NCBI GenBank assembly: GCA_007123715.1
Contig: SKKO01000056.1
Coordinates: 1 to 52,519 of the forward strand
Direction: 5' to 3'
Source: Balneolaceae bacterium
GTDB lineage: Bacteria > Bacteroidota > Rhodothermia > Balneolales > Balneolaceae
DNA length: 52,519 bases
Part shown: positions 25,697 to 51,372 of the stretch, piece by piece
How positions within the stretch are numbered: position 1 is the stretch's first letter
Layout of the letters: each line of letters opens with the position of its first letter
Translations under genes and position numbers: made by a program
The notes under the pieces: model-generated
The model's input: the letters and a program-made list of their open reading frames with translations, nothing else
What the model was told of the DNA's origin: nothing
Database searches by the model: none

Positions 25697-26956
25697 ATGG
25701 AAACAGTACAAACAAAATCAGGAAAAGAGATAGAACAGGATAAAGCGATTCCTTTCGCTGCTCATCATAAATTTTTAATCGTGGGCGGAGGAACTGGCGG
25801 GATTACGGTTGCAGCTCAAATCATGAAGAAATTAAAAAATACGGATGTAGCTATCATTGAGCCTTCGGAGGTTCATTATTACCAGCCAATGTGGACATTT
25901 AACGCGGCCGGAATTCTCAAGAAGGAGCGTTCTAAAAGATTAATGAACGATGTAATACCCAAAGATGTGGTATGGATTCGGGATCGTGTAACGACCTTTC
26001 ATCCGGAAAAAAACCTGGTGAAAACCGCAGGCGATGATTTTTATTCCTATGAATACCTTATTGTTGCCCCCGGAATCCAGGTGGATTGGGATGCCATACC
26101 GGGGCTTGCCGGGAATTTAGGCAAACATGGCATTTGCAGTATATACTGCTACAGGCATATAGACTATGTAGAGGAATGCATCAAAAATACAAAAAATGGA
26201 AATGCTCTTTTTACCCAGCCAAATACAAAGTTCAAATGCGGGGGTGCCCCTCAGAAAATTATGTATCTAGCTTCCGATATCTGGAAAAGAAATGGGATTC
26301 TTGATCAGATTAATGTACAATTCACGACTGCCGGTTCAGTGATTTTTGGCGTGAAGGAAGTAGCCGAAGCATTGAAACCGGTAATAGCAAGGTATAGCAT
26401 TGAGCCAAAATTACTTCACAACCTGAAGGCAATAAAAGCGGAAGAGAAAATTGCCGTGTATGATATATTTAAAGATGGCAAACCTGTTGACGAAGTGGAA
26501 ATTCCATATGAGATGTTACATGTAACTCCGCCGCAAAGTTCGCCGGATTTTATCAAAAGAAGCCCGATTTCAGATGCAGAGGGCTGGGTGGATGTAAACA
26601 TGCATACGATGCAGCACAATCAGTACCCAAATATTTTTTCCCTGGGAGATGCCGGCAGTACTCCAAATGCAAAAACAGGAGCAGCCATAAGAAAACAGTC
26701 GAGAGTGGTGACCGGGAATTTATTCTCACTTGAAAAGAATGGCCACATTGATGAAAATCTAATCTATGATGGTTATGGATCCTGCCCATTGATTACCGGC
26801 ATCGGAAAATTAATTCTTGCGGAATTCGGATACGAAAATAAGATGTCTCCATCATTTCCATTTAACCAGATGAAAGAAAGATGGACCATGTATCACATGA
26901 AGAAGGATCTGCTCCCAATTATGTATTGGCATGGCATGTTGAAAGGCAGGGCTTAA
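25697..26956 (+). CDS. sqr: Sulfide:quinone oxidoreductase, type II (SQOR-like)
   Basis: 419 residues. FAD-binding GGGTGG at residues 30-35; the paired redox cysteines of the type II branch are C181 (NTKFKCGGAPQKIMYLASD) and C363 (YGSCPLITG), with the NIFSLGDAGSTPNAKTGAAI flavin motif between them. FIFNTTGFGVKEV-like and YEMLHVTPPQSSPDF stretches follow human SQOR closely. The enzyme oxidises H2S to sulfane sulfur (passed to a thiol or sulfite) and puts electrons into the quinone pool at the inner membrane. It has a slightly longer hydrophilic N-terminus than needed. Divergent from gntR, with a candidate operator in between; first gene of the sulfide island. Confidence 0.92.
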   Translation: METVQTKSGKEIEQDKAIPFAAHHKFLIVGGGTGGITVAAQIMKKLKNTDVAIIEPSEVHYYQPMWTFNAAGILKKERSKRLMNDVIPKDVVWIRDRVTTFHPEKNLVKTAGDDFYSYEYLIVAPGIQVDWDAIPGLAGNLGKHGICSIYCYRHIDYVEECIKNTKNGNALFTQPNTKFKCGGAPQKIMYLASDIWKRNGILDQINVQFTTAGSVIFGVKEVAEALKPVIARYSIEPKLLHNLKAIKAEEKIAVYDIFKDGKPVDEVEIPYEMLHVTPPQSSPDFIKRSPISDAEGWVDVNMHTMQHNQYPNIFSLGDAGSTPNAKTGAAIRKQSRVVTGNLFSLEKNGHIDENLIYDGYGSCPLITGIGKLILAEFGYENKMSPSFPFNQMKERWTMYHMKKDLLPIMYWHGMLKGRA

Positions 26957-26978
26957 TTAGTAAAAATATAATTTCATG

Positions 26979-27001
26979 TAATTACTTGAGTTACGTAATT
27001 A
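26979..27001. promoter_or_regulatory. Dyad element after sqr
   Basis: TAATTAC (26979-26985) and GTAATTA (26995-27001) form a perfect 7-bp inverted repeat with a 9-base centre. It lies 23 bases after the sqr stop and 8 bases before the GntR-type site. With no T run it is a weak terminator; it may be a second protein-binding site. Confidence 0.3.
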
Positions 27002-27008
27002 TTTTACA

Positions 27009-27044
27009 ACTTGTATTGACAAGTAGTTACATTTGTTTTATATT
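27009..27044 (+). promoter_or_regulatory. Promoter with overlapping GntR-type operator before yeeE
   Basis: TTGACA at 27016-27021 and TATATT at 27039-27044 are separated by exactly 17 bases, a near-consensus sigma-70-type promoter 36 bases ahead of the yeeE start. A perfect dyad ACTTGT-ATTG-ACAAGT covers 27009-27024, directly across the -35 box, and matches the 16-bp site in the gntR-sqr region. Binding there would block RNA polymerase, as expected of a repressor. Confidence 0.65.
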
Positions 27045-27079
27045 TCTATCAGAAACAATTAATCAAAGCATTAAAAACA

Positions 27080-27643
27080 ATGTTAGACTTTTTATATCAA
27101 CCATGGCCCTGGTATGTGGCCGGCCCGATTATAGGGTTAACCGTTCCCGTTTTGCTGCTGGTTGGCGGCAAAATGTTTGGAGTATCTGCCAATCTGCGCC
27201 ACGCGTGTGCAGCCTGTAATTTTGGCAACGTAGAATTTTTTAATTACGACTGGAAAACAGCCGGAAAATGGAACTTCACTTTTTTAGCAGGGTCAGTTTT
27301 TGGCGGGTTTTTAGGGGGGTATGTTTTTGCAAACCCGGAACCAATCGCACTTGCTCAATCTACCATTGCCGATTTGCAAGCCTTGGGAATTCAGGATTTT
27401 ACAGGTTTAGTTCCCGATGACCTGTTTACGTGGAGTTCACTGGGAACCGTACCCGGCCTCATCGTTCTAATTCTTGGAGGCTTTCTCGTCGGTTTTGGAG
27501 CACGATACGCAGGCGGCTGCACTTCCGGCCATGCTATTTCGGGCTTGTCTGACCTCCAGCTTGCATCTCTTATTGCAGTGATTGGCTTTTTTATCGGAGG
27601 CCTCCTGATGACATGGTTCATCTATCCAATTATACTATCCTAA
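27080..27643 (+). CDS. YeeE/YedE-family sulfur transporter, first half
   Basis: 187 residues with five or so hydrophobic helices. The signature GGCTSGHAISG near residue 150 and NLRHACAACNF with three nearby Cys are those of the YeeE/YedE (TsuA-like) family, which brings thiosulfate or related sulfur species across the inner membrane through a row of cysteines. Long family members hold both halves in one chain; here the second half is the next gene (12-base gap). A strong promoter with a candidate GntR operator lies upstream. Confidence 0.86.
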   Translation: MLDFLYQPWPWYVAGPIIGLTVPVLLLVGGKMFGVSANLRHACAACNFGNVEFFNYDWKTAGKWNFTFLAGSVFGGFLGGYVFANPEPIALAQSTIADLQALGIQDFTGLVPDDLFTWSSLGTVPGLIVLILGGFLVGFGARYAGGCTSGHAISGLSDLQLASLIAVIGFFIGGLLMTWFIYPIILS

Positions 27644-27655
27644 TAGAGGTTTAAA

Positions 27656-28081
27656 ATGAAATTTACAGAATATTTAAAGTATTTACTGATCGGTACAGCT
27701 TTTGGATTTGTACTGATAAAATCAGAAGTGGTATCCTGGTTCAGAATCCAGGAAATGTTTCGCTTTGATGCATTCCATATGTATGGAATTATCGGTGTTG
27801 CGGTTATCGTGGGCATCATATCTGTTCAGATAATCAAACGAAATAATATGAAAGATGCCAGTGGGAATCCCATCACCATACCTCCCAAAGATGCATCGCA
27901 GGTTAAGAGATACCTGATAGGCGGTTCAATGTTTGGCCTTGGGTGGGCACTTTTGGGTGCATGCCCCGGCCCAATGTTTGCACTGCTGGGTAGCGGACTC
28001 ACCATTATGGTAATCCCGATACTGGCAGCACTTGCAGGTACTTACACGTACGGCATTTTAATAGAAAAATTACCTCATTAA
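27656..28081 (+). CDS. YeeE/YedE-family sulfur transporter, second half (DUF6691-like)
   Basis: 141 residues with four helices. The key stretch FGLGWALLGACPGPMFALLG contains the conserved G-x-CPGP Cys of the YeeE second half. It presumably forms one transporter with the preceding gene, from which it is 12 bases away; a good AGAGG precedes its ATG at 27648-27652. Paired half-size YeeE genes next to persulfide dioxygenase and rhodanese genes are a recurrent arrangement, supporting import or export of sulfane or thiosulfate sulfur. Confidence 0.85.
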   Translation: MKFTEYLKYLLIGTAFGFVLIKSEVVSWFRIQEMFRFDAFHMYGIIGVAVIVGIISVQIIKRNNMKDASGNPITIPPKDASQVKRYLIGGSMFGLGWALLGACPGPMFALLGSGLTIMVIPILAALAGTYTYGILIEKLPH

Positions 28082-28138
28082 GAAAGTTTTATTTAAAAAG
28101 ATTATCAATAAACAAAAAACAAAACATAAATAATCATC

Positions 28139-29545
28139 ATGTACTTCAAACAATTCTTTGACGAAAAATTAGCACAATATGCATACCTGATCGGTTGTCA
28201 GGCAAACGGAACCGCAGTAGTGATCGACCCAATGAGGGACATTGATCAATACATCGACGCAGCAGCAAAAGAGAATCTTACTATTGTTGCGGCTACAGAT
28301 ACTCACATTCACGCTGATTACATATCAGGTCTGCGTGAATTTGCAGAACGCGGTGTGAAAGTCTATGCTTCTGATGAAGGTGACAAAGACTGGAAATATG
28401 AATGGCTTATCGACAGTGATTACAACTATGAGCTGATGAAAGACGGGGATGAAATTAAAATCGGTAACATCACCATTAAAGCATGGCATACACCCGGGCA
28501 TACACCGGAGCACCTCACATTTCTAATAACCGATGGTGCTGCCGCAAATGAGCCCATGGGTATGGCTACCGGCGACTTTGTATTTGTAGGCGATCTTGGA
28601 CGCCCCGATTTGCTGGAATCAGCCGCAGGCATGGCCAATGTAATGGAACCTTCAGCAAGAACGTTATACAAAACGGTAGAAGAGTTCAAAAAAATGCCGG
28701 AATATATGCAGATTTGGCCCGGCCATGGTGCAGGAAGCGCATGTGGAAAAGCATTAGGCGCTATACCCGAAACAACAGTTGGATACGAGCTGAGATATAA
28801 TAATTCGTTAAAGTCCGCAACATCAGAAGATAGCTTTGTGAAGTTTATCCTTGAAGGACAGCCCGAGCCGCCTCTCTATTTTGCAAGAATGAAACGGGAT
28901 AATAAAATTGGTCCCGCAATCATAGGCGGACTTCCAAAGGTTAAAAGGCTTACAATAAAAGAGCTTGGTATCGCAGCCGTTAAAGAAGGAGCCGTAATTT
29001 TGGATACCCGCGAGAGAAATGAATATGCGGCAGGCCACATACCGGGCTCATTGCTTTCACCATTAAACAGGCAATTCAACACGGTTGCAGGCTCCTATAT
29101 AACTGAAGACGAGAAGATTTACCTTATTGTTGAAGAACACCGCGTAGAGGAAGCCATTCGCGACCTTTACAGAATCGGCCTGGATAATGTTGTAGGGTAT
29201 GTTAATGCAAGAGATCTCCAGATTTACAAGACCCAGGGAGGAAAAATGGAAACTCTGGAAGTAACCGATTTTGATGTTATTGGAAAACTTACGGAAAACG
29301 ATGTGATCCTTGACGTCAGAAAGGCATCAGAGTTTGAGGAATTCCATCTGACAGGAGCCTTGAATTTTGCTCACGCCAGGCTTCTTCCCAAAATGAAAGA
29401 ACTTCCTGAAGGGAAGAAATTTTATGTTCACTGCCAGTCAGGTGGAAGATCAGCAGTTGCTGCTGCTCTTTTAAAGCGCAGCGGCTTAGACGTGGCACTG
29501 ATTGATGATGAAGTAGAGAAAGTAAAATCAGCAGTTACGGCTTAA
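28139..29545 (+). CDS. CstB/ETHE1-like persulfide dioxygenase fused to two rhodanese domains
   Basis: 468 residues. Residues 1-255 are a metallo-beta-lactamase fold with the persulfide-dioxygenase iron site: THIHADYISG (H56), HTPGHTPEH (H121) and VGDLG (D152). The usual sixth motif residue (HADH) is Tyr61. Residues about 265-355 are a rhodanese homology domain whose loop has no catalytic Cys (LIVEEHRVEEA). Residues about 365-468 are an active-looking rhodanese with HCQSGGRS (C432). The same three-part design is known in S. aureus CstB, which oxidises thiol persulfide to sulfite and transfers sulfur to form thiosulfate. Downstream of sqr and yeeE, it would clear persulfide made by SQR. A hairpin follows the gene. 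Confidence 0.9.
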   Translation: MYFKQFFDEKLAQYAYLIGCQANGTAVVIDPMRDIDQYIDAAAKENLTIVAATDTHIHADYISGLREFAERGVKVYASDEGDKDWKYEWLIDSDYNYELMKDGDEIKIGNITIKAWHTPGHTPEHLTFLITDGAAANEPMGMATGDFVFVGDLGRPDLLESAAGMANVMEPSARTLYKTVEEFKKMPEYMQIWPGHGAGSACGKALGAIPETTVGYELRYNNSLKSATSEDSFVKFILEGQPEPPLYFARMKRDNKIGPAIIGGLPKVKRLTIKELGIAAVKEGAVILDTRERNEYAAGHIPGSLLSPLNRQFNTVAGSYITEDEKIYLIVEEHRVEEAIRDLYRIGLDNVVGYVNARDLQIYKTQGGKMETLEVTDFDVIGKLTENDVILDVRKASEFEEFHLTGALNFAHARLLPKMKELPEGKKFYVHCQSGGRSAVAAALLKRSGLDVALIDDEVEKVKSAVTA

Positions 29546-29570
29546 TAAGTCTGCTGATAAATGAGAGAAT

Positions 29571-29604
29571 CACACAATCCCTCCCACATGGGAGGGATTG
29601 CGTG
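29571..29604 (+). terminator. Strong hairpin after the persulfide dioxygenase gene
   Basis: A perfect 11-bp stem (29575-29585 with 29590-29600) around the 4-base loop ACAT, extended by three more pairs after one mismatch. It begins 26 bases after the stop codon. There is no T run, so it may act as an mRNA 3' stabiliser or a Rho-assisted terminator, separating the dioxygenase from the permease genes. Confidence 0.55.
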
Positions 29605-29706
29605 CTCAAATATTAATATATAGTGAAGAGACAATAAAAAGGAATGGACAGGCCACTTCCAGTCATAAGTTGTCTGCCAGCTCATCCAGGTACTTGATAG
29701 GAACCT

Positions 29707-31428
29707 TTGAATAAAACAACATTTCATATTACATCCATTTTCCCGATTCTGAACTCCCTGAAATCGTATAGTAAATTGGATTTTAAGGGTGATCTGAATG
29801 CAGGGATTACAGTGGGTATCATGCTTATCCCGCAAGGAATGGCATACGCTTTAATTGCCGGGTTGCCTCCGCAGTACGGCCTGTATGCCGCATTGGTTCC
29901 CCTGTTGATTTATGCATTCATGGGTACATCCCGTCATCTTGGAGTTGGGCCGGTAGCCCTAATTGCATTACTGATTGCTTCTGCAGTAGCACCCATAGCA
30001 GAAACACCCGAAGAGTATATTACTTTGAGTATTCTGCTAACACTTATGACAGGCGGTTTGCAGTTTTTATTCGGATTAATGCGGATGGGATTTTTGGTGA
30101 ATTTACTATCCCATCCGGTTTTGTCAGGCTTTGTATCGGCCGCCGCAATTATCATTGGTTTCAGCCAATTACATCACTTGCTCGGGATTCAATCGGTTAC
30201 AGGTGGTTTGCATGAAATTGTGCAGGGAATTGTATTACAATTTGCAGAAATAAAGCCTTTGACATTTGCAATAGGTGGAGGAGCAATTGCAATTATTCTA
30301 CTTGCAAAAAAGAAATTGAAGGCAGTTCCGGGCCCGGTATTGGCAGTTATATCTGGTATTTTACTTATTTATTTCACAAGCATGCAGGAAAAAGGTATTG
30401 CCATAGTGGGTGAAATTTCAAGCGGACTTCCCGCATTCATTATTCCCGCAGTTGAATGGCAAACCCTATTGAACCTTATGCCAATGGCAGCAGCCATAGC
30501 ATTGGTAGCATTTATGGAAGCTATTGCAGTTGCCAAGGCTGTACAACAAAAATCAAAAGAATATAAAATTGACCCAAACCAGGAACTGGTGGCCCTGGGA
30601 GCAGCCAATATTGGGGGTGCTTTTTTCCAGTCTTTTCCTGTAACGGGCAGTTTTTCCCGTACAGCTATCAATTATGAGACTGGTGCAAAGACAGGAATAG
30701 CCGGATTATTCAGTGCCGGTATCGTTGCTTTATCGCTTATATTTCTCACACCAATCTTTTATTATCTTCCAAACGCTGTTCTTGGTGCAATTATCATTGT
30801 AGCAGTTTTAGGACTCATAGATTACGGGGAGATAAAAAGACTTTGGGAGCTTGGCCATTACGACCGTTACATGATGATTGCCACATTTGCGGGTACATTA
30901 TTCATTGGTATCAAGGAAGGAATTTTACTCGGGGTTACCCTTTCCGTGATTATGCTTCTGTATCGATCCGCCCGGCCGAACTATGCAGTAATTGGCCGGA
31001 TTCCCGGAACAACTGTTTATCGGAACATTGAACGTTATGAAACCGAGAAACATCCCGATACATTGATTTTCCGTTTTGACGCACCCTTACATTTTGCAAA
31101 TGCCGAGTATTTCAGGAAAAAAGTAAATGAGCTAATCAGCAATAATCCCGACACAACCTGTCTTATTCTCGACCTGAACGGGATTAACGAAATGGATTCA
31201 ACCGGTCTTGATGAATTTCTTGAAACAATAAAGGACATGGTTGAGAAAAAAATATCGGTAAAACTGACAGAGGTGAAAGCAACGGTTCGTGATATGATAA
31301 AACGCGGAACAGACGGCAGTGAGAAATGGGAGTTTTATATGAGAATAGAGGATGCTGTGCGGTCACTAGACGGAGAACATACATCAGATGAAAATGAACG
31401 TGATACCATTCACCTTGATACGAAATAA
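29707..31428 (+). CDS. SulP-family anion permease with STAS domain
   Basis: 573 residues: 10-14 hydrophobic helices with the SulP signature region GITVGIMLIPQGMAYALIAGLPPQYGLYA, then LGVGPVALIALLIA, and a cytosolic STAS domain from about residue 445 (LILDLNGINEMDSTGLDEFLETI). SulP proteins move sulfate, bicarbonate or other anions. The start is TTG at 29707 with AGGA 4 bases upstream; there is no in-frame ATG for a further 37 codons, well into the first helix. Downstream of the persulfide dioxygenase it is well placed to move sulfite, sulfate or bicarbonate (inference). Confidence 0.85.
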   Translation: MNKTTFHITSIFPILNSLKSYSKLDFKGDLNAGITVGIMLIPQGMAYALIAGLPPQYGLYAALVPLLIYAFMGTSRHLGVGPVALIALLIASAVAPIAETPEEYITLSILLTLMTGGLQFLFGLMRMGFLVNLLSHPVLSGFVSAAAIIIGFSQLHHLLGIQSVTGGLHEIVQGIVLQFAEIKPLTFAIGGGAIAIILLAKKKLKAVPGPVLAVISGILLIYFTSMQEKGIAIVGEISSGLPAFIIPAVEWQTLLNLMPMAAAIALVAFMEAIAVAKAVQQKSKEYKIDPNQELVALGAANIGGAFFQSFPVTGSFSRTAINYETGAKTGIAGLFSAGIVALSLIFLTPIFYYLPNAVLGAIIIVAVLGLIDYGEIKRLWELGHYDRYMMIATFAGTLFIGIKEGILLGVTLSVIMLLYRSARPNYAVIGRIPGTTVYRNIERYETEKHPDTLIFRFDAPLHFANAEYFRKKVNELISNNPDTTCLILDLNGINEMDSTGLDEFLETIKDMVEKKISVKLTEVKATVRDMIKRGTDGSEKWEFYMRIEDAVRSLDGEHTSDENERDTIHLDTK

Positions 31429-42265: not shown

Positions 42266-42550
42266 ATGTGTCTTGCAATTCCCGGAAAAGTCATTTCTAT
42301 TGCACCGGATTTTGATGAAGTCAATTATCCCGGTAAAGTATCATTCGGAGGAATTGTGCGCGAGGTAAATTTCTGTTTCCTGCCTGAAACCGACGTTGGA
42401 GACTATGTGCTTGTACATGTAGGAGTTGCACTCAGTAAGGTTGATGAAGAGGAGGCCTTACTTACCCTGAAATATCTTGACGAGATGGGAGAACTGGATG
42501 AAATAAAAACAGAGCCGGAAAGTCCGGGAGCCGGATATGAAATACCTTGA
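42266..42550 (+). CDS. hypC: Hydrogenase maturation chaperone HypC
   Basis: 94 residues starting MCLAIPGKV, the HypC signature whose Cys2 carries the Fe(CN)2CO unit. The ATG at 42266 is preferred, as AGGAG is 8 bases upstream (42253-42257); longer readings add a 22-residue segment that no HypC has. The middle YPGKVSFGGIVREVNFCFLPETDVGDYVLVHVGVAL matches the family. HypC works with HypD in assembling the cyanide-ligated iron of [NiFe]-hydrogenase. It overlaps the hypD start by 14 bases and opens the hydrogenase locus. Confidence 0.95.
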   Translation: MCLAIPGKVISIAPDFDEVNYPGKVSFGGIVREVNFCFLPETDVGDYVLVHVGVALSKVDEEEALLTLKYLDEMGELDEIKTEPESPGAGYEIP

Positions 42551-43622
42551 TGAGTTCCGGGATTCTGTACTTGTTCATAAACTGCTGCGTAAAATACGGA
42601 GTACGGTAACTCAGCCCTGGCATATCATGGAGGTTTGCGGCGGACAAACTCACGGTTTGGTACGCCATGGAATTTTAGATATGCTGCCTGAACAAATCCG
42701 GATGATTCACGGTCCGGGATGTCCCGTCTGTGTTACACCGGTTGCCCTGATCGATAAGGCGATTGATCTGAGTATGAGAAATAATGTGATCCTGTGTTCT
42801 TACGGAGATATGCTTCGGGTTCCGGGAAGCTCAATCAGCCTGCAACAGGCCAGAGCCAGAGGCGGAGATATTCGGATTCTTTATACACCGCTCGAAGCGG
42901 TTACCATCGCAAGGAATAATCCATCGAAAGAAGTTGTTTTTTTTGCGGTAGGCTTTGAAACAACCGCCCCTGCAAATGCACTTTCCGTTTTACAGGCACA
43001 TAAGGCCGGTCTAAGAAATTATTCAGTATTAAGTGCACATGTGCTGGTGCCGCCGGCAATTGAAGCCATCATGAGTGATCCTGGTACGATAGTAAACGGA
43101 TTTCTGGCGGCAGGGCATGTTTGCACGGTAATGGGGTTGAGTGAATACGAACCCCTTGTTGAACAGTGGAAAGTACCCATTGTGGTAACAGGGTTTGAAC
43201 CTGTTGACTTGCTGGAAGGTATCTGGATGGTTGTTTCACAACTTGAAAATGGGGAGTATCGTCTCGAAAATCAATACCGGCGGGTTGTAAGTAAAAATGG
43301 CAACCGGGTAGCAATCGAGTGGATTCGACAGGTGTTTGAACACCGTACGAGAGAGTGGCGGGGCATTGGTGAAATACCGCTGAGCGGATTATTTTTACGG
43401 GAAAAGTTTAAACATTATGATGCCCTGCAAAAATTCGGTGAGCCCGAAATTCAGGCCGGAAAGCAGGAAGATTGCCGTTCCGGTGATATTATGAAAGGGA
43501 AAATCAAGCCGCCTGATTGTCCGCATTTTGGGAATAAATGTACCCCCGTGTTTCCTTTGGGGGCTCCGATGGTTAGCAGTGAGGGGGCCTGCGCGGCTTA
43601 TTATCAGTACAGGCAAAAATAA
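42537..43622 (+). CDS. hypD: Hydrogenase maturation Fe-S protein HypD
   Basis: 361 residues with a conserved MEVCGGQTHGL stretch, GPGCPVCVTP, the CSYGDMLRVPGSS block, GFETTAPANAL, and a C-terminal four-Cys region (KIKPPDCPHFGNKCTPVFPLGAPMVSSEGACAAYY). HypD holds a 4Fe-4S cluster and, with HypC, is the scaffold for the Fe(CN)2CO moiety. ATG at 42537 lies within the last codons of hypC, indicating translational coupling. All family motifs appear intact, so function is expected. Confidence 0.96.
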   Translation: MKYLDEFRDSVLVHKLLRKIRSTVTQPWHIMEVCGGQTHGLVRHGILDMLPEQIRMIHGPGCPVCVTPVALIDKAIDLSMRNNVILCSYGDMLRVPGSSISLQQARARGGDIRILYTPLEAVTIARNNPSKEVVFFAVGFETTAPANALSVLQAHKAGLRNYSVLSAHVLVPPAIEAIMSDPGTIVNGFLAAGHVCTVMGLSEYEPLVEQWKVPIVVTGFEPVDLLEGIWMVVSQLENGEYRLENQYRRVVSKNGNRVAIEWIRQVFEHRTREWRGIGEIPLSGLFLREKFKHYDALQKFGEPEIQAGKQEDCRSGDIMKGKIKPPDCPHFGNKCTPVFPLGAPMVSSEGACAAYYQYRQK

Positions 43623-43638
43623 TTGCAGATCAAATTAT

Positions 43639-44694
43639 ATGAATCAAAAACCTGCTGTAACACTAAATTGCCCGATGCCCTTCCGTGATTTCGATTCGAT
43701 CACACTTGGACATGGCGGCGGAGGTAAATTAACCCAAACATTACTGGAGAATGGTGTCTTTTCACTCCTGAACAATGACTGGCTGACGGGGCAGGATGAT
43801 GCTGCAAATCTGGTTCTTGATGGTAAATACGCTTTTAGTACCGATACATTTGTGGTATCACCGGTCATATTTCCGGGAGGAACAATTGGTGATCTGGCCG
43901 TTAACGGTACGGTAAATGATCTGGCAGTGAGTGGCGCCAAGCCTGAATACCTTTCGCTTTCATTTATTCTTGAGGAGGGACTGCAGGGCGCTGAATTTTG
44001 GGAAATCCTGCTATCCATACGGAATGCCTGTTCCGAAACCGGAGTGAAAGTGGTTACCGGAGATACAAAAGTGGTGGAAAAAGGAAAAGGAGATAAAATT
44101 TTCATAAATACAACCGGTATTGGGAAAATTCATTCATCAGCAAAATTGGGAATGAAAAATATTCGCCCTGGTGATAAAATTCTGCTTAGCGGGCCACCAG
44201 CCCGGCACGGAATTGCCATTATGAGCAAACGACAGGGACTGGAATTTGAGACAACGTTAACCAGCGATACACGTCCGCTTCACCTCATTTGTATGCAGCT
44301 AATTGAACAATTTGAAAGCGGCATACGCTTTATGCGCGATCCTACCCGGGGCGGAGTGGCTACGGTTCTTCACGATATCGTGCGTCATACAAATCTGGGA
44401 ATTGAGATCCGGGAAAATAGCCTGCCTCTTGAAAATGAAGTAGCGGGAGCATGTGAAATGCTCGGGTTTGATCCTCTCTTTGTTGCAAATGAAGGATTAT
44501 TTGTGTGCGTTGTTAGCCCCGAGATATCCGATGCATGTTTGCATACACTTCAGACATGGAAACACGGTGCCCAGGCTGCGGTTATCGGCAACGTTGTGAA
44601 TGAACATCCCGGAGGTGTGCTGATGCACAGCAAAATTGGAGGAAAAAGAATGCTGCCTCAGGCAAGCGGAGAACTGTTGCCAAGAATATGCTGA
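43639..44694 (+). CDS. hypE: Hydrogenase maturation factor HypE
   Basis: 351 residues of the AIR-synthase/selenophosphate-synthetase fold: DSITLGHGGGGKLTQTLL, DDAANLVLDGKYAFSTDTFVVSPVIFPGG, NDLAVSGAKPEYLS, RDPTRGGVATVLHDI. It ends in Cys (LLPRIC), the C-terminal residue that carries thiocarbamate and becomes thiocyanate, which HypE donates as CN. Start ATG at 43639 gives the normal length; an upstream start inside hypD would add a poor 37-residue extension. 16 bases after hypD. A hairpin follows. Confidence 0.95.
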   Translation: MNQKPAVTLNCPMPFRDFDSITLGHGGGGKLTQTLLENGVFSLLNNDWLTGQDDAANLVLDGKYAFSTDTFVVSPVIFPGGTIGDLAVNGTVNDLAVSGAKPEYLSLSFILEEGLQGAEFWEILLSIRNACSETGVKVVTGDTKVVEKGKGDKIFINTTGIGKIHSSAKLGMKNIRPGDKILLSGPPARHGIAIMSKRQGLEFETTLTSDTRPLHLICMQLIEQFESGIRFMRDPTRGGVATVLHDIVRHTNLGIEIRENSLPLENEVAGACEMLGFDPLFVANEGLFVCVVSPEISDACLHTLQTWKHGAQAAVIGNVVNEHPGGVLMHSKIGGKRMLPQASGELLPRIC

Positions 44695-44766: not shown

Positions 44767-44953
44767 AAAATATGGGCTCACCATTTGAATAATTCAATAA
44801 TTCCTCATAATGTACAACTATACCTACATGCGACTCTTCATTTATTATTAAATTTGCGATGGTCATCAGGTTAGTTCATCATTGATCTGATGCTGTCCGG
44901 ACAAAGATGGGTTCGTGTAAATTTTCCAACCTAAAGAAAAAAGGATGTTGGAT

Positions 44954-46720
44954 ATGGATGCACAACTTACAGGTACTTACCTAAACGAACCTCCCCGCAC
45001 ACAAATGCTGAATCGGCTTTGGGAATTTCAGCGTGCAAAGCAATATATTTCTGACGCTGATATTATTACTCTTGCCAGAGATTATCAGATATCTGAAATA
45101 GAGATCGAGGGGATTGTTTCATTTTATCACTTTTTTCACCGAAAGCCTGCCGGAAAATATACCATCTACCTGAATAACAGCATGACGTCACATCTAAAGG
45201 GATTCAACAGGATTCTTGAAGCTTTTGAACGTGAAACTGCTGCCAAAGCGGGATCAACAGATCCTACCGGAACTTTTGGGTTGTTTCTTACACCCTGTAT
45301 CGGATTAAGTGACCAGGAGCCAGCGGCCCTGATTAACTTTTACCCATTCACAAACCTGAATACCCTTAAAATACGGGACATTATCACACAACTAAGGAAA
45401 GGTGTGCCGGTTGAGGAGTTGTATGATATGCCGAAGGAAAACATACATTACACAACCGAAGATAAACCCGGCATATTCTTTTCGGATTTTAAATCCGGTT
45501 CAGCGATTTCTAAACTGGTTGCCCTCCAGCAGAATGGTGTTATTAATTTATTAAAAGAAACCAAGTTATCGGGAAGAGGTGGAGCTTTTTATCCGACTTG
45601 GATGAAATGGCAGGCTGCTGCGGATGAAAATTCAACCCAAAAAGTAGTGGTTTGTAATGCAGATGAAGGTGAACCGGGCACATTTAAAGATCGTGCATTA
45701 TTACATAAAGTACCCGAGACTGTGATCGAGGGAATGATCGTTTGTGCCTATGCCGTGGGTGCAGGTTTTGGGCTGATATACCTGAGGGCTGAATATACCT
45801 GGCTGTTAAACAGGATTGAAAAGGCCTTGCAGCGATATCGTGATAAAGGGTTGCTTGGAAAGAGCTGTGGGGGTATTACGAATTTCAATTTTGATATCCG
45901 GGTTCAGCTCGGGGCGGGTTCCTACGTTTGCGGAGAGGAAACGGCACTGCTCGAATCGGCAGAAGGTAAGCGTGGAGAACCACGTACCAGATGGTTTTAC
46001 CCGGTACAAAAAGGATATCTGAATTTACCAACCGTGGTAAATAATGTGGAGACGTTCTCTGCTGTTTCAAGAATCATCGAATTTGGTACAGATCATTTTC
46101 GAAGCTATGGTATTGAAAAATCACCCGGCACAAAAATTATCAGTGTCTCCGGTGATTGTAAATATCCGGGAATTTACGAGATAGAATGGGGTATGACACT
46201 TGGTGAACTGCTCGATAAATGCGGTGCCGAAGACCCCTATTATATTCAGGAAAGCGGGCCATCAGGTACTGTACTTACGGTAGATGAACTGGATGTCCCG
46301 TTCGCCATGTTTGCTGAATTTTTCAGCCAGCACATCAGGTGTGGCGGTGCACTGACCATATTTAATAAAAACCGGGATATCCTTGAAATACTGTTGAATT
46401 ATGCCGATTTCTACAAGAAAGAGTCTTGTGGAATCTGCACCCCATGCAGGGCCGGTAATTACTTCATTGAGCGTAAACTGGGACGGTTAAAAAACAGACT
46501 TGCCAATAAGGATGATATAGAAGAATTGAAGCAATGGAGTATTATCATGCGTCACACGAGCCGCTGTGGGTTGGGTAAAACAGCAACAAACAGCCTCATT
46601 AATACCCTCGATAAGTTTGGTGATTATTTTGATGGCATTATCGAGCAGGATAAATCTGCATTAAATGTAGGTTTTGATATGGAAGCAGCGATCCGCGATT
46701 ACGAGGAATTTAAAAATTAA
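44954..46720 (+). CDS. hoxF: HoxF: diaphorase subunit with degenerate NuoE-like N-terminus
   Basis: About 588 residues. The ATG at 44954 is chosen over 44945 because AAAAGG ends 9 bases upstream. Residues 1-165 resemble NuoE, but of its four 2Fe-2S cysteines only one (in LTPCIGLSD) remains; the CxxxxC position reads LNNSMTS. The rest is NuoF-like: GRGGAFYPTWMKW and NADEGEPGTFKDR for NADH, GAGSYVCGEETAL for FMN, and ESCGICTPCRAGN with SRCGLG for the 4Fe-4S cluster. It oxidises or reduces NAD(H) in the soluble bidirectional hydrogenase. Followed after 20 bases by the hoxU-hoxY fusion. There is no separate hoxE gene. Confidence 0.92.
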   Translation: MDAQLTGTYLNEPPRTQMLNRLWEFQRAKQYISDADIITLARDYQISEIEIEGIVSFYHFFHRKPAGKYTIYLNNSMTSHLKGFNRILEAFERETAAKAGSTDPTGTFGLFLTPCIGLSDQEPAALINFYPFTNLNTLKIRDIITQLRKGVPVEELYDMPKENIHYTTEDKPGIFFSDFKSGSAISKLVALQQNGVINLLKETKLSGRGGAFYPTWMKWQAAADENSTQKVVVCNADEGEPGTFKDRALLHKVPETVIEGMIVCAYAVGAGFGLIYLRAEYTWLLNRIEKALQRYRDKGLLGKSCGGITNFNFDIRVQLGAGSYVCGEETALLESAEGKRGEPRTRWFYPVQKGYLNLPTVVNNVETFSAVSRIIEFGTDHFRSYGIEKSPGTKIISVSGDCKYPGIYEIEWGMTLGELLDKCGAEDPYYIQESGPSGTVLTVDELDVPFAMFAEFFSQHIRCGGALTIFNKNRDILEILLNYADFYKKESCGICTPCRAGNYFIERKLGRLKNRLANKDDIEELKQWSIIMRHTSRCGLGKTATNSLINTLDKFGDYFDGIIEQDKSALNVGFDMEAAIRDYEEFKN

Positions 46721-46740: not shown

Positions 46741-48015
46741 ATGGCCAAACGCGTAAATATTACCATTGACGGCAGAAACATATTAGCTGAAGAAGGGAGA
46801 AATCTTGTAGAAGTAGCATCAGAAAACGGGTTCTTTATTCCCTCTCTCTGTTATTTTGAAACCATTGATCCTCCGCTTGGAACATGTCGTACATGCACAT
46901 GCAGAATCAACGGCAAGTTTGGCCCGGCCTGTACGGAGAAAGTAACTGAAGGCCTTACTCTTGAAGTAAATGCACCCGACCTGAAAGACATGAGAAAAGC
47001 TTTGGTGGAAATGATGTTTGCCGAGGGTAATCATATCTGCCCATCCTGCGAAAAAAGCGGTAATTGCGACCTTCAGCACATGGGCTATGAACTTGGTATA
47101 GCGATCAGCCGTTTCCCGCATCTGTTCAAAGACAGGCTGATTGATTATGATGCCAAACGGATGATTATGGAGCATAACCGGTGTATTAAATGCATGCGGT
47201 GCGTTGTGGAAATTAAGAATGATGACGGTAATCAGATATTCAGTTATCAGAATCGCGGCAATGAAACGTATGTAGGGATTGATTATAAAGAAGAAAAGAA
47301 ACTCTCGAGGGAGCAGGCCATTCATGCCATGAACATTTGTCCCACCGGAGCCATTATCGTTCGGGGAGAAAGTTATGGGTTGCCGTTTGGATTCAGAAAA
47401 TTTGATAAAAAATCTACACGGCCGGATTATGGCAAGCCTATTCATAATAATAACAAACGAAAAGGGAAACCTGCCAAAAAGACCATCGCAACCGTATCCC
47501 TCGCCGGCTGTTTTGGCTGCCATATGTCGCTCCTCGATATAGATACCGAACTACTCGACATGGTTGAATTGATTTCATTCCACAAATCGCCGATCACGGA
47601 TATTAAGGAATTTTCACAGCGCTGTGATGTGGGTATCGTGGAAGGTTCCGTTTGTAACGATGAAAATGTGGAAACGCTCAGGGCATTCAGAAAAAATTGC
47701 GACTTGCTTGTAGCTGTAGGTGAATGTGCCATTTGGGGTGGATTGCCATCCATGCGAAACAGCATTCCGCTTGGGGAGTGTATGGAAGAGGCATACCTGA
47801 ACTGTGTAACGAGTGAGGAGGGAAATACCATCATCCCTTATCATAAAGACCTTCCAAAAATGCTTGACAGGGTTTATGAAAGCCGTGAAATAGTGAAGAT
47901 CGATTATTTCATTCCGGGGTGTCCGCCCGATGCACAGCACATCTGGAAAGCAGTAAAGAATCTGTTGTGGGATGAAAATTATTCCATCCTATATTCTGAA
48001 TTTAAGTACGATTAA
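46741..48015 (+). CDS. hoxU-hoxY: HoxU-HoxY fusion: electron-transfer and small hydrogenase subunits in one chain
   Basis: 424 residues in one uninterrupted frame. Residues 1-215 are HoxU: 2Fe-2S ligands C37, C49, C52 and C64; H98, C100, C103, C109 for a 4Fe-4S site; C148, C151, C154 and C200 for another. Residues 216-248 are a Lys/Asn-rich linker (SESYGLPFG to KGKPAKK). From about 249 is HoxY: AGCFGCHMSLLD (C257, C260), AVGECAIWGG (C329) and PGCPPDAQ (C394), the proximal 4Fe-4S cluster. In the well-known Ralstonia and cyanobacterial enzymes these are separate genes. The fusion would tie the H2-activating module rigidly to the NAD module. Sits 15 bases before hoxH. Confidence 0.9.
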   Translation: MAKRVNITIDGRNILAEEGRNLVEVASENGFFIPSLCYFETIDPPLGTCRTCTCRINGKFGPACTEKVTEGLTLEVNAPDLKDMRKALVEMMFAEGNHICPSCEKSGNCDLQHMGYELGIAISRFPHLFKDRLIDYDAKRMIMEHNRCIKCMRCVVEIKNDDGNQIFSYQNRGNETYVGIDYKEEKKLSREQAIHAMNICPTGAIIVRGESYGLPFGFRKFDKKSTRPDYGKPIHNNNKRKGKPAKKTIATVSLAGCFGCHMSLLDIDTELLDMVELISFHKSPITDIKEFSQRCDVGIVEGSVCNDENVETLRAFRKNCDLLVAVGECAIWGGLPSMRNSIPLGECMEEAYLNCVTSEEGNTIIPYHKDLPKMLDRVYESREIVKIDYFIPGCPPDAQHIWKAVKNLLWDENYSILYSEFKYD

Positions 48016-49486: not shown

Positions 49487-49972
49487 ATGAAAAAAATTCT
49501 TTTGTTAGGTATAGGCAACTCCGGAAGGGCTGATGACGGCCTCGGGTGGCTTTTTCTTGATGAAATTGAGAAAAGATATCCCGGAATATTTGCAATAGAG
49601 TATCGCTATCAGCTTCAGGTTGAAGATGCCGAACTGATACGCCATTACGATTCTGTATTATTTATTGATGCCACCCAGGAAAAAATCCCGGAAGGCTGTG
49701 CAATAAGGCCATGTGAATCATCAGGAAGTTTTTACTACTCGTCTCACTTGCAAAGCCCAGAAGCCATTGTTTATCTTGCCGAAGAGCTCTATGGCCGGGT
49801 CCCGGACGCCAATACGCTTCACATATGCGGATATGATTGGGAATTGGGAAACCGGCCGTTACAAGCGGCACTTGAAAACCTCAACCGGGCACTGAAATTA
49901 TTTCATGATACATTTTTTGAAATTGCAGTCCCGGCCTCTCAGGAACATAAATCTGAACCTGTAACCTTATGA
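49487..49972 (+). CDS. hoxW: HoxW-like hydrogenase maturation endopeptidase
   Basis: 161 residues. Starts MKKILLLGIGNSGRADDGLGW, the HycI/HoxW nickel-sensing motif with the conserved DDGLG. Middle Asp/His pattern includes YQLQVEDAELIRHYD and VLFIDATQE; YSSHLQSPEAIVYLAEELYG and LHICGYDWELG follow. It clips the C-terminal tail of HoxH once Ni is in place. Placed directly after hoxH and overlapping the next gene by 4 bases (ATGA), as expected for a dedicated protease. Confidence 0.9.
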   Translation: MKKILLLGIGNSGRADDGLGWLFLDEIEKRYPGIFAIEYRYQLQVEDAELIRHYDSVLFIDATQEKIPEGCAIRPCESSGSFYYSSHLQSPEAIVYLAEELYGRVPDANTLHICGYDWELGNRPLQAALENLNRALKLFHDTFFEIAVPASQEHKSEPVTL

Positions 49973-50205
49973 ACGATATGAAAATCATGAAATCTTTATG
50001 GATCGCACTGGTATCGTCACTAACTGCCGGCAGTATGTTGCTCTATGCTCATCCGGGACATGGTGACACTCACGGCCACTCACTTCTTCATTATCTTATG
50101 GAACCCATGCATGCGATGGTTCTTGCAGCTGTAGTACTGATGATAGCCGGTTCATGTACCTGGTACCTGATCCGTAAAAAGAATAAAGCGGCCGAACGTG
50201 CATGA
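49969..50205 (+). CDS. Short HupE-like His-rich membrane protein
   Basis: 78 residues. Signal-like first helix (SLWIALVSSLTAGSMLLY), then AHPGHGDTHGHSLLHYLMEPMHA, very like the N-terminus of HupE/UreJ nickel permeases (AHPGHG followed by His pairs), then a single further helix and a basic tail (LIRKKNKAAE). HupE has about six helices, so this is only its start. It overlaps hoxW by 4 bases and hypA by 8, which argues for a genuine coupled gene. A periplasmic nickel-collecting peptide is a reasonable guess (inference). The exact start among three close ATGs is open. Confidence 0.7.
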   Translation: MNDMKIMKSLWIALVSSLTAGSMLLYAHPGHGDTHGHSLLHYLMEPMHAMVLAAVVLMIAGSCTWYLIRKKNKAAERA

Positions 50206-50554
50206 AATTACCGTTGTAGCTAACATTATTGATATCGCTGAGCAGGAAGCCCGAAAAGCCGGAGCATATTCTGTGATTGCAATAGACATTGAAATCGGTA
50301 AACTGAGCTGCATCGAAAAAGCAGCATTTGATTTTGCATGGAAGCACGGGGTGCGAAATACCATGCTCGAAAAAGCAGAGAGAACAACACACTATATTCC
50401 CGGCAAAGCAACTTGTAAAACATGCGGAGAGGTTTTTGAACTATCCGAACTGTTTGAACCATGCCCCCATTGCGGGGGGTATCTGTCCGAAGTACTGGAG
50501 GGAAATGAATTGAAAGTACGATCACTGAGAATAGAAGAAACAAACAACATCTAA
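50198..50554 (+). CDS. hypA: Hydrogenase nickel-insertion protein HypA
   Basis: 118 residues. GTG at 50198 gives the obligatory MHE start, where His2 binds nickel; no other start keeps it. The zinc site is CKTCGEVFELSELFEPCPHCG (C73, C76, C89, C92). HypA delivers nickel with HypB to the large subunit. The frame overlaps the HupE-like gene by 8 bases. It precedes hypB by 11 bases. Confidence 0.94.
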   Translation: MHEITVVANIIDIAEQEARKAGAYSVIAIDIEIGKLSCIEKAAFDFAWKHGVRNTMLEKAERTTHYIPGKATCKTCGEVFELSELFEPCPHCGGYLSEVLEGNELKVRSLRIEETNNI

Positions 50555-50565
50555 AGGATTGAGTT

Positions 50566-51372
50566 ATGTGTATTACTTGCGGCTGCGGCACAGATAGCGC
50601 CCATATTGTAACGGAAGGCCACGATCACGATCACCATCATCCTCATGATCATGATCACCAACATCACCATCATTCGCAAGGCCATGAACACAGCCATCAG
50701 GATGTGAATGGAAGGCTGATTACCCTCGAAAAAGATATTTTACACGAAAATGACCTTCTCGCAGCAAGAAACAGGGGCTATCTTGATGCAAAAAAAATAT
50801 TCGCGATCAATATGGTAAGCTCTCCGGGAAGTGGCAAAACCATGCTTTTGGAACGAACTCTCACAGACCTGAAGAATGAAATCTCTTTCAGCGTTATCGA
50901 AGGAGACCAAAACACAAGCCTGGATGCTGACCGTATCAGGCAAACAGGAACAAAAGCCGTGCAAATCAACACGGGAAAAGGATGCCACCTCGATGCACAC
51001 ATGGTGCTGCATGCCATCCGGGACCTGGAGCCACCGGATAATAGTATTCTGTTTATCGAAAATGTAGGGAATCTTGTATGCCCGTCCATGTTCGACCTTG
51101 GAGAAAATGAACGCGCAGTGATCTTCAGTGTTACCGAAGGCGATGACAAACCCATCAAATATCCTGACATGTTCCATACATCCGGAGTATGCGTCATCAA
51201 CAAATCAGACCTTCTGCCTTACGTCTCTTTCAATGTGGAAAGAGCCATTGAAAATGCCAAAAAAATCAATCCTGAATTAACTTTTTTTACCACAAGCTGT
51301 ACAACGGGAGAGGGCCTGGATGAATGGTACGACTGGCTGAGGAGTAACGTGCATAAACCCGTTACCGGCTAA
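50566..51372 (+). CDS. hypB: Hydrogenase nickel GTPase HypB with His-rich tail
   Basis: 268 residues. Starts MCITCGCG (C2, C5, C7), the high-affinity nickel motif; residues 13-44 contain 16 histidines, a nickel-storage sequence. GTPase part: Walker A SSPGSGKT (85-92), EGDQNTSLDADRIR, the metal-switch GKGCHLDAHM, ENVGNLVCPS and NKSDLL. It stores nickel and hydrolyses GTP to drive transfer to HypA and HoxH. 12 bases before hypF. Confidence 0.95.
   Translation: MCITCGCGTDSAHIVTEGHDHDHHHPHDHDHQHHHHSQGHEHSHQDVNGRLITLEKDILHENDLLAARNRGYLDAKKIFAINMVSSPGSGKTMLLERTLTDLKNEISFSVIEGDQNTSLDADRIRQTGTKAVQINTGKGCHLDAHMVLHAIRDLEPPDNSILFIENVGNLVCPSMFDLGENERAVIFSVTEGDDKPIKYPDMFHTSGVCVINKSDLLPYVSFNVERAIENAKKINPELTFFTTSCTTGEGLDEWYDWLRSNVHKPVTG

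Follow-up and report, generated by a model that had tools for sequence, protein, structure and literature searches.

The hydrogenase locus of a Balneolaceae genome raises the question of whether HoxU, the iron-sulphur subunit of the diaphorase, and HoxY, the hydrogenase small subunit, are here a single protein and, if so, how that protein arose and what the joining does. In enzymes of the HoxFUYH family, H2 is split at HoxH and electrons pass via the clusters of HoxY and HoxU to the FMN of HoxF and to NAD+, in a reversible reaction. We investigated the locus in a window of 52,519 nucleotides (contig SKKO01000056.1, assembly GCA_007123715.1), this being the whole stretch of DNA that was analysed.

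A fused hoxUY gene among hox and hyp genes

We identified a single reading frame for both subunits, running from ATG to stop over 424 codons with no internal stop (computed mass 48.0 kDa), within the gene order hypC, hypD, hypE, hoxF, hoxUY, hoxH, protease, hypA and hypB. The features are as follows.

42266..42550, + strand: hypC
42537..43622, + strand: hypD
43639..44694, + strand: hypE
44945..46720, + strand: hoxF, with a HoxE-like N-terminal domain, an FMN/NAD domain and a C-terminal 4Fe-4S site (C495/C498/C501/C541)
46741..48015, + strand: hoxUY, fused HoxU (diaphorase Fe-S subunit) and HoxY (hydrogenase small subunit), 424 aa
46741..47415, + strand: HoxU part, residues 1-225, with three Fe-S sites and a conserved PFGxRxFD tail
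47416..47472, + strand: variable joint, residues 226-244, TRPDYGKPIHNNNKRKGKP, with no in-frame ATG, GTG or TTG
47473..48012, + strand: HoxY part, residues 245-424, with the proximal-cluster ligands C257, C260, C329 and C394
48031..49485, + strand: hoxH, the [NiFe] large subunit, with the motifs RLCGICPVSH and DPCLSCATQ
49487..49972, + strand: hoxW-like hydrogenase maturation protease, assigned by synteny (its match is weak and falls short of the curated cut-off)
50198..50554, + strand: hypA (GTG start)
50566..51372, + strand: hypB

The Pfam domains of hoxUY are Fer2_4 (residues 3-75), NADH-G_4Fe-4S_3 (85-122), Fer4_Nqo3 (143-205) and Oxidored_q6 (257-407). In sequence, residues 7-225 align to chain B (HoxU) and residues 244-424 to chain C (HoxY) of PDB 5xf9, which, with 5xfa, we take to be the NAD-reducing hydrogenase of Hydrogenophilus thermoluteolus. 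With cluster types taken from the known HoxU/NuoG families, the HoxU part contains a [2Fe-2S] site (C37/C49/C52/C64) and two [4Fe-4S] sites (H98/C100/C103/C109 and C148/C151/C154/C200). The HoxY part (245-424) matches the 5xf9 HoxY over its full length; it has a single 4Fe-4S cluster, the proximal one, and lacks a domain for medial or distal clusters. All of the HoxU cluster ligands, and the four HoxY cysteines, are kept in 114 of 114 aligned homologues, both fused and split. The original prediction, of one 424-residue chain with three Fe-S sites in HoxU and these same four cysteines in HoxY, is thus borne out, with the HoxU part extending to residue 225 rather than ending at 215. An AlphaFold2 model of hoxUY was of moderate confidence (mean pLDDT 71.8, pTM 0.66), and Foldseek matched its halves to 5xf9 chain B/F and chain C; the arrangement of the two halves is not readable from this model because confidence is low across the joint.

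The structural locus consists of three genes, hoxF, hoxUY and hoxH, as had been proposed, and this order is conserved across the fused clade wherever the contig reaches. HoxF had also been described as HoxE-less, and there is indeed no separate HoxE, but the N-terminus of HoxF carries a HoxE/NuoE-like domain (PF01257) that retains only one of its usual cysteines. HoxF and HoxU together contain Complex1_51K, NADH_4Fe-4S, Fer2_4, NADH-G_4Fe-4S_3 and Fer4_Nqo3, a complex I-like diaphorase set with an FMN/NAD domain. HoxH contains the four NiFe-binding cysteines (RxCGxC ... DPCxxC; here RLCGICPVSH and DPCLSC), and we found no other [NiFe] large subunit in the source genome. The L2 motif of HoxH reads DPCLSCATQ, not DPCLSCATH, the final His or Gln lying where the maturation protease cuts HoxH. 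Among the rows read, this Gln was present in 40 of 57 fused and 0 of 28 split ones, with two changes on the tree.

We additionally noted sulfur genes upstream of the hydrogenase (25697-31428). These comprise a sulfide:quinone reductase-like gene (25697) and a thiosulfate-transporter TsuA/YeeE-like gene (27080), a metallo-hydrolase with rhodanese that is persulfide-dioxygenase-like (28139), all three weak matches below cut-off, and a SulP-like permease (29707) assigned by reading only.

Distribution of the fusion

Scanning one genome for each species yielded 73 loci and, with the window and further loci from genome searches, 70 different fused rows; a frameshifted draft (L068) and three loci cut at contig ends (L069, L071 and L072) were left out of the counts. 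All but one of the different fused sequences (69/70) fall in one clade, which contains Balneolota, Rhodothermota, Bacteroidota (Chitinophagaceae, Cyclobacteriaceae, Saprospiraceae, Flavobacteriaceae and others), Gammaproteobacteria (Woeseiaceae/Lysobacterales) and one Myxococcota (Polyangia) MAG. Two isolates, Robiginitalea marina and Ginsengibacter hankyongi, carry the fused gene. Within the window's own order it is present in 10 of 128 genomes, other genomes of the same genus being among the carriers, and a separate family of this order (f56) has split hoxU and hoxY. The search for the fused junction across genomes, proposed with the original prediction, returned 69 different sequences in one clade. 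The fusion is the rule in a large clade and nothing out of the ordinary for this lineage.

As the source assembly is a draft (390 contigs), a stop lost, or a frameshift introduced, in sequencing or assembly might in principle have created hoxUY. This explanation is scarcely credible: it is refuted by independent assemblies, dozens of which show the same fusion, the two isolates among them, and by the same-genus genomes.

Origins of the fusion

In a tree of U+Y sequences, the large fused group resolves as one clade (bootstrap/SH-aLRT 100/100), which sits within a larger clade (100/99) together with split enzymes of the C. necator type and of some Bdellovibrionota. A second fused group of six genomes (L120 and L184-L188) is placed among other gammaproteobacterial split enzymes, and a relative in genome G1089 is split, with a 4-nt overlap. 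Judged from these sequences, HoxU and HoxY were joined on at least two occasions in evolution. Constraining the fused forms to one common origin was rejected with L120 alone (p = 0.003) and again after adding four of its relatives (AU p = 1.6e-28). A sequencing error behind the L120 fusion was likewise rejected, as five further relatives are also fused. Gammaproteobacterial carriers of the main fusion nest among Bacteroidota with moderate tree support, which suggests that the main-clade fusion reached Gammaproteobacteria by transfer.

Three Chitinophagaceae loci (L011, L018 and L024) additionally contain a distantly related split HoxU/HoxY pair, lying a few kb away from the fused operon and on the other strand; this second pair groups with cyanobacterial-type forms.

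The joint between HoxU and HoxY

A 30-residue Lys/Asn-rich linker had been predicted between the two halves. We found that the truly variable part of the joint is about 19 residues long (about 226-244), and that the span of approximately 215-248 is mostly made up of the conserved HoxU tail (P215, G217, R219 and D222 invariant) and the HoxY leader. The PFGxRxFD tail of fused HoxU has a counterpart, P[IF]GxRxYD, in split HoxU. From C200 to C257 there are 53-61 codons in fused rows (median 56), and mostly 49-68 codons in split genes of the same subfamily. An inserted linker domain is rejected, as the fused spacing equals the split-gene spacing; the Lys/Asn-richness itself stands, limited to the window's protein and its nearest relatives. 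The sequence of fused joints varies freely, with length changing by whole codons only. Over half of the joint substitutions (187/349 changes, 54%) fall at third codon positions, indicating that the joint is read as codons.

HoxY is in phase with HoxU in all 70 fused rows, versus 2 of the 41 split rows counted (20/19/2 across the three phases). Overlaps of 4-11 nt between hoxU and hoxY are frequent among split relatives, the C. necator genes overlapping by 4 nt; the split genes of family f56 do not overlap and have gaps of 14-134 nt. Because the C200-C257 span is the same in fused and split genes, the most likely event is a loss of the HoxU stop and of the frame offset, with nothing added. The ancestor of the fused gene would have been a hoxU-hoxY pair, probably overlapping by a few bases, that became one gene on losing this stop and offset.

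Proposed working and alternative explanations

By analogy with the split enzymes, electrons would pass between the [NiFe] site of HoxH, the proximal cluster of the HoxY half, the clusters of the HoxU half and the FMN/NAD site of HoxF. We predict that hoxUY is translated as one stable chain, in which a peptide bond would link two modules, the diaphorase (HoxF with the HoxU half) and the hydrogenase (the HoxY half with HoxH). The two modules should therefore not separate at the HoxU-HoxY interface, and the fusion would prevent their separation. The predicted 1:1 ratio of U to Y holds as a direct consequence of the single chain, no second full copy of HoxU or HoxY having been found elsewhere in the source genome (98% complete), and a free HoxFU diaphorase should be ruled out. 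It had also been proposed that the covalent link would fix the electron path between modules; the cluster ligands do not differ between fused and split enzymes. In unfused enzymes, separation is documented: the enzyme of Rhodococcus opacus dissociates in two on purification, at the module contact (PMC3189943), and HoxEFU of Synechocystis is readily isolated without HoxYH (PMC7363133). The fusion may also raise stability or activity, although neutrality is no less probable.

A bolder reading, to which we give a probability of roughly one in three, is that selection favoured the fusion, on both occasions, as a means of keeping the diaphorase and hydrogenase halves together. If this is true, these lineages have a natural single-chain bridge between modules, and no free HoxFU diaphorase. 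Set against it is the reading, to which we assign slightly less than an even chance, that the fusion is functionally neutral, one small indel having joined the genes with stoichiometry, stability and electron flow unchanged; the single chain is not disputed. Since hoxU and hoxY would already have overlapped and probably been translated together, such an indel could join them without effect. The neutral reading agrees with the overlaps in many split relatives, with a joint that is variable and has no extra length, and with the identical cluster ligands of fused and split forms, and the C. necator SH is a stable tetramer although unfused (PMC3189943). It accounts less readily for a fusion that is kept in 69 different sequences over wide phyla without reversal seen, that was likely transferred into Gammaproteobacteria and that arose twice, although persistence alone is no proof of selection.

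Both of these readings take hoxUY as a single polypeptide. It is improbable that the one frame yields free HoxY as well, by an internal start or proteolysis. Split HoxY genes usually start 12-16 codons before the Cys matching C257, and 17 of 70 fused genes (e.g. L013-L015 and L017-L019) retain an in-frame ATG that lies within this range, precisely 13 codons upstream of C257; however, the joint lacks an in-frame ATG in 28/70 fused genes, and lacks any ATG, GTG or TTG in 11/70. The only start codon near the joint in the window is a TTG at residue 214, which is 43 codons upstream of C257, and a hidden internal HoxY start within the window's joint was rejected, with none of the three start codons there.

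We found no description of a HoxU-HoxY fusion in the open-access literature, although one may exist elsewhere; in two papers that use the term 'hoxUY', it belongs to gene lists and expression constructs. Fused hoxUY genes already lie in public genomes. For cyanobacteria, there is debate over whether HoxEFU acts as a diaphorase separately from the hydrogenase (PMC7363133). The fused enzyme, with U and Y in one chain that should form no free HoxFU, is thus a natural case in which to ask if separation matters, and as the same junction was fused twice independently, the question is open to comparative testing. The fused enzyme may also serve as a more robust template for regenerating NADH with H2.

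Comparison with known systems

We assign the enzyme with high confidence to the group 3d cytoplasmic NAD-coupled [NiFe]-hydrogenases, of the Cupriavidus/Hydrogenophilus HoxFUYH kind, with the fused hoxUY tying the diaphorase to the hydrogenase module. The features of this group are present, namely the HoxH Ni-site cysteines, a short HoxY, a HoxF/HoxU diaphorase and placement beside the C. necator SH in the U+Y tree. Group 3d enzymes are known in Bacteroidetes, HydDB listing Phaeodactylibacter (PMC5037454). The classical four-gene HoxFUYH has separate HoxU and HoxY, in place of which the window has the single frame 46741-48015; the locus is thus a variant of HoxFUYH and not the classical arrangement. 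Nor is it a cyanobacterial-type HoxEFUYH, which has a separate HoxE with a 2Fe-2S cluster, the HoxE-like domain here lying inside HoxF.

HoxFUYH of C. necator H16 (plasmid pHG1) resembles the window in gene order, domains and all cluster ligands, in the HoxE-like N-terminal domain of HoxF with one usual cysteine, and in the maturation protease and hyp genes nearby, with a U+Y identity of 47%. It differs in its separate, overlapping (4 nt) hoxU and hoxY and in a HoxH L2 that ends in His, where the window's ends in Gln. The C. necator SH is without a [2Fe-2S] cluster matching the HoxE-like domain (PMC3189943). The two halves of the window's protein match HoxU and HoxY of 5xf9/5xfa, which there form separate chains (B and C). 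The split HoxFUYH forms of Bdellovibrionota (L073, L074 and L179-L183) and of family f56 (L164-L177) are among the window's nearest split relatives by sequence and tree (U 40-47%, Y 51-62%), and have separate genes, in every phase. Cyanobacterial HoxEFUYH (Synechocystis, Acaryochloris) is likewise an NAD(P)-linked bidirectional hydrogenase with homologous HoxU and HoxY, but its HoxE, hoxU and hoxY are all separate. Finally, in the electron-bifurcating NiFe HydABCSL (PDB 7t2r), the N-terminal part of subunit A is HoxU-like and the small subunit resembles HoxY; there, in contrast to the window, the HoxU-like domain lies within a larger subunit (692 aa) and the small subunit is separate.
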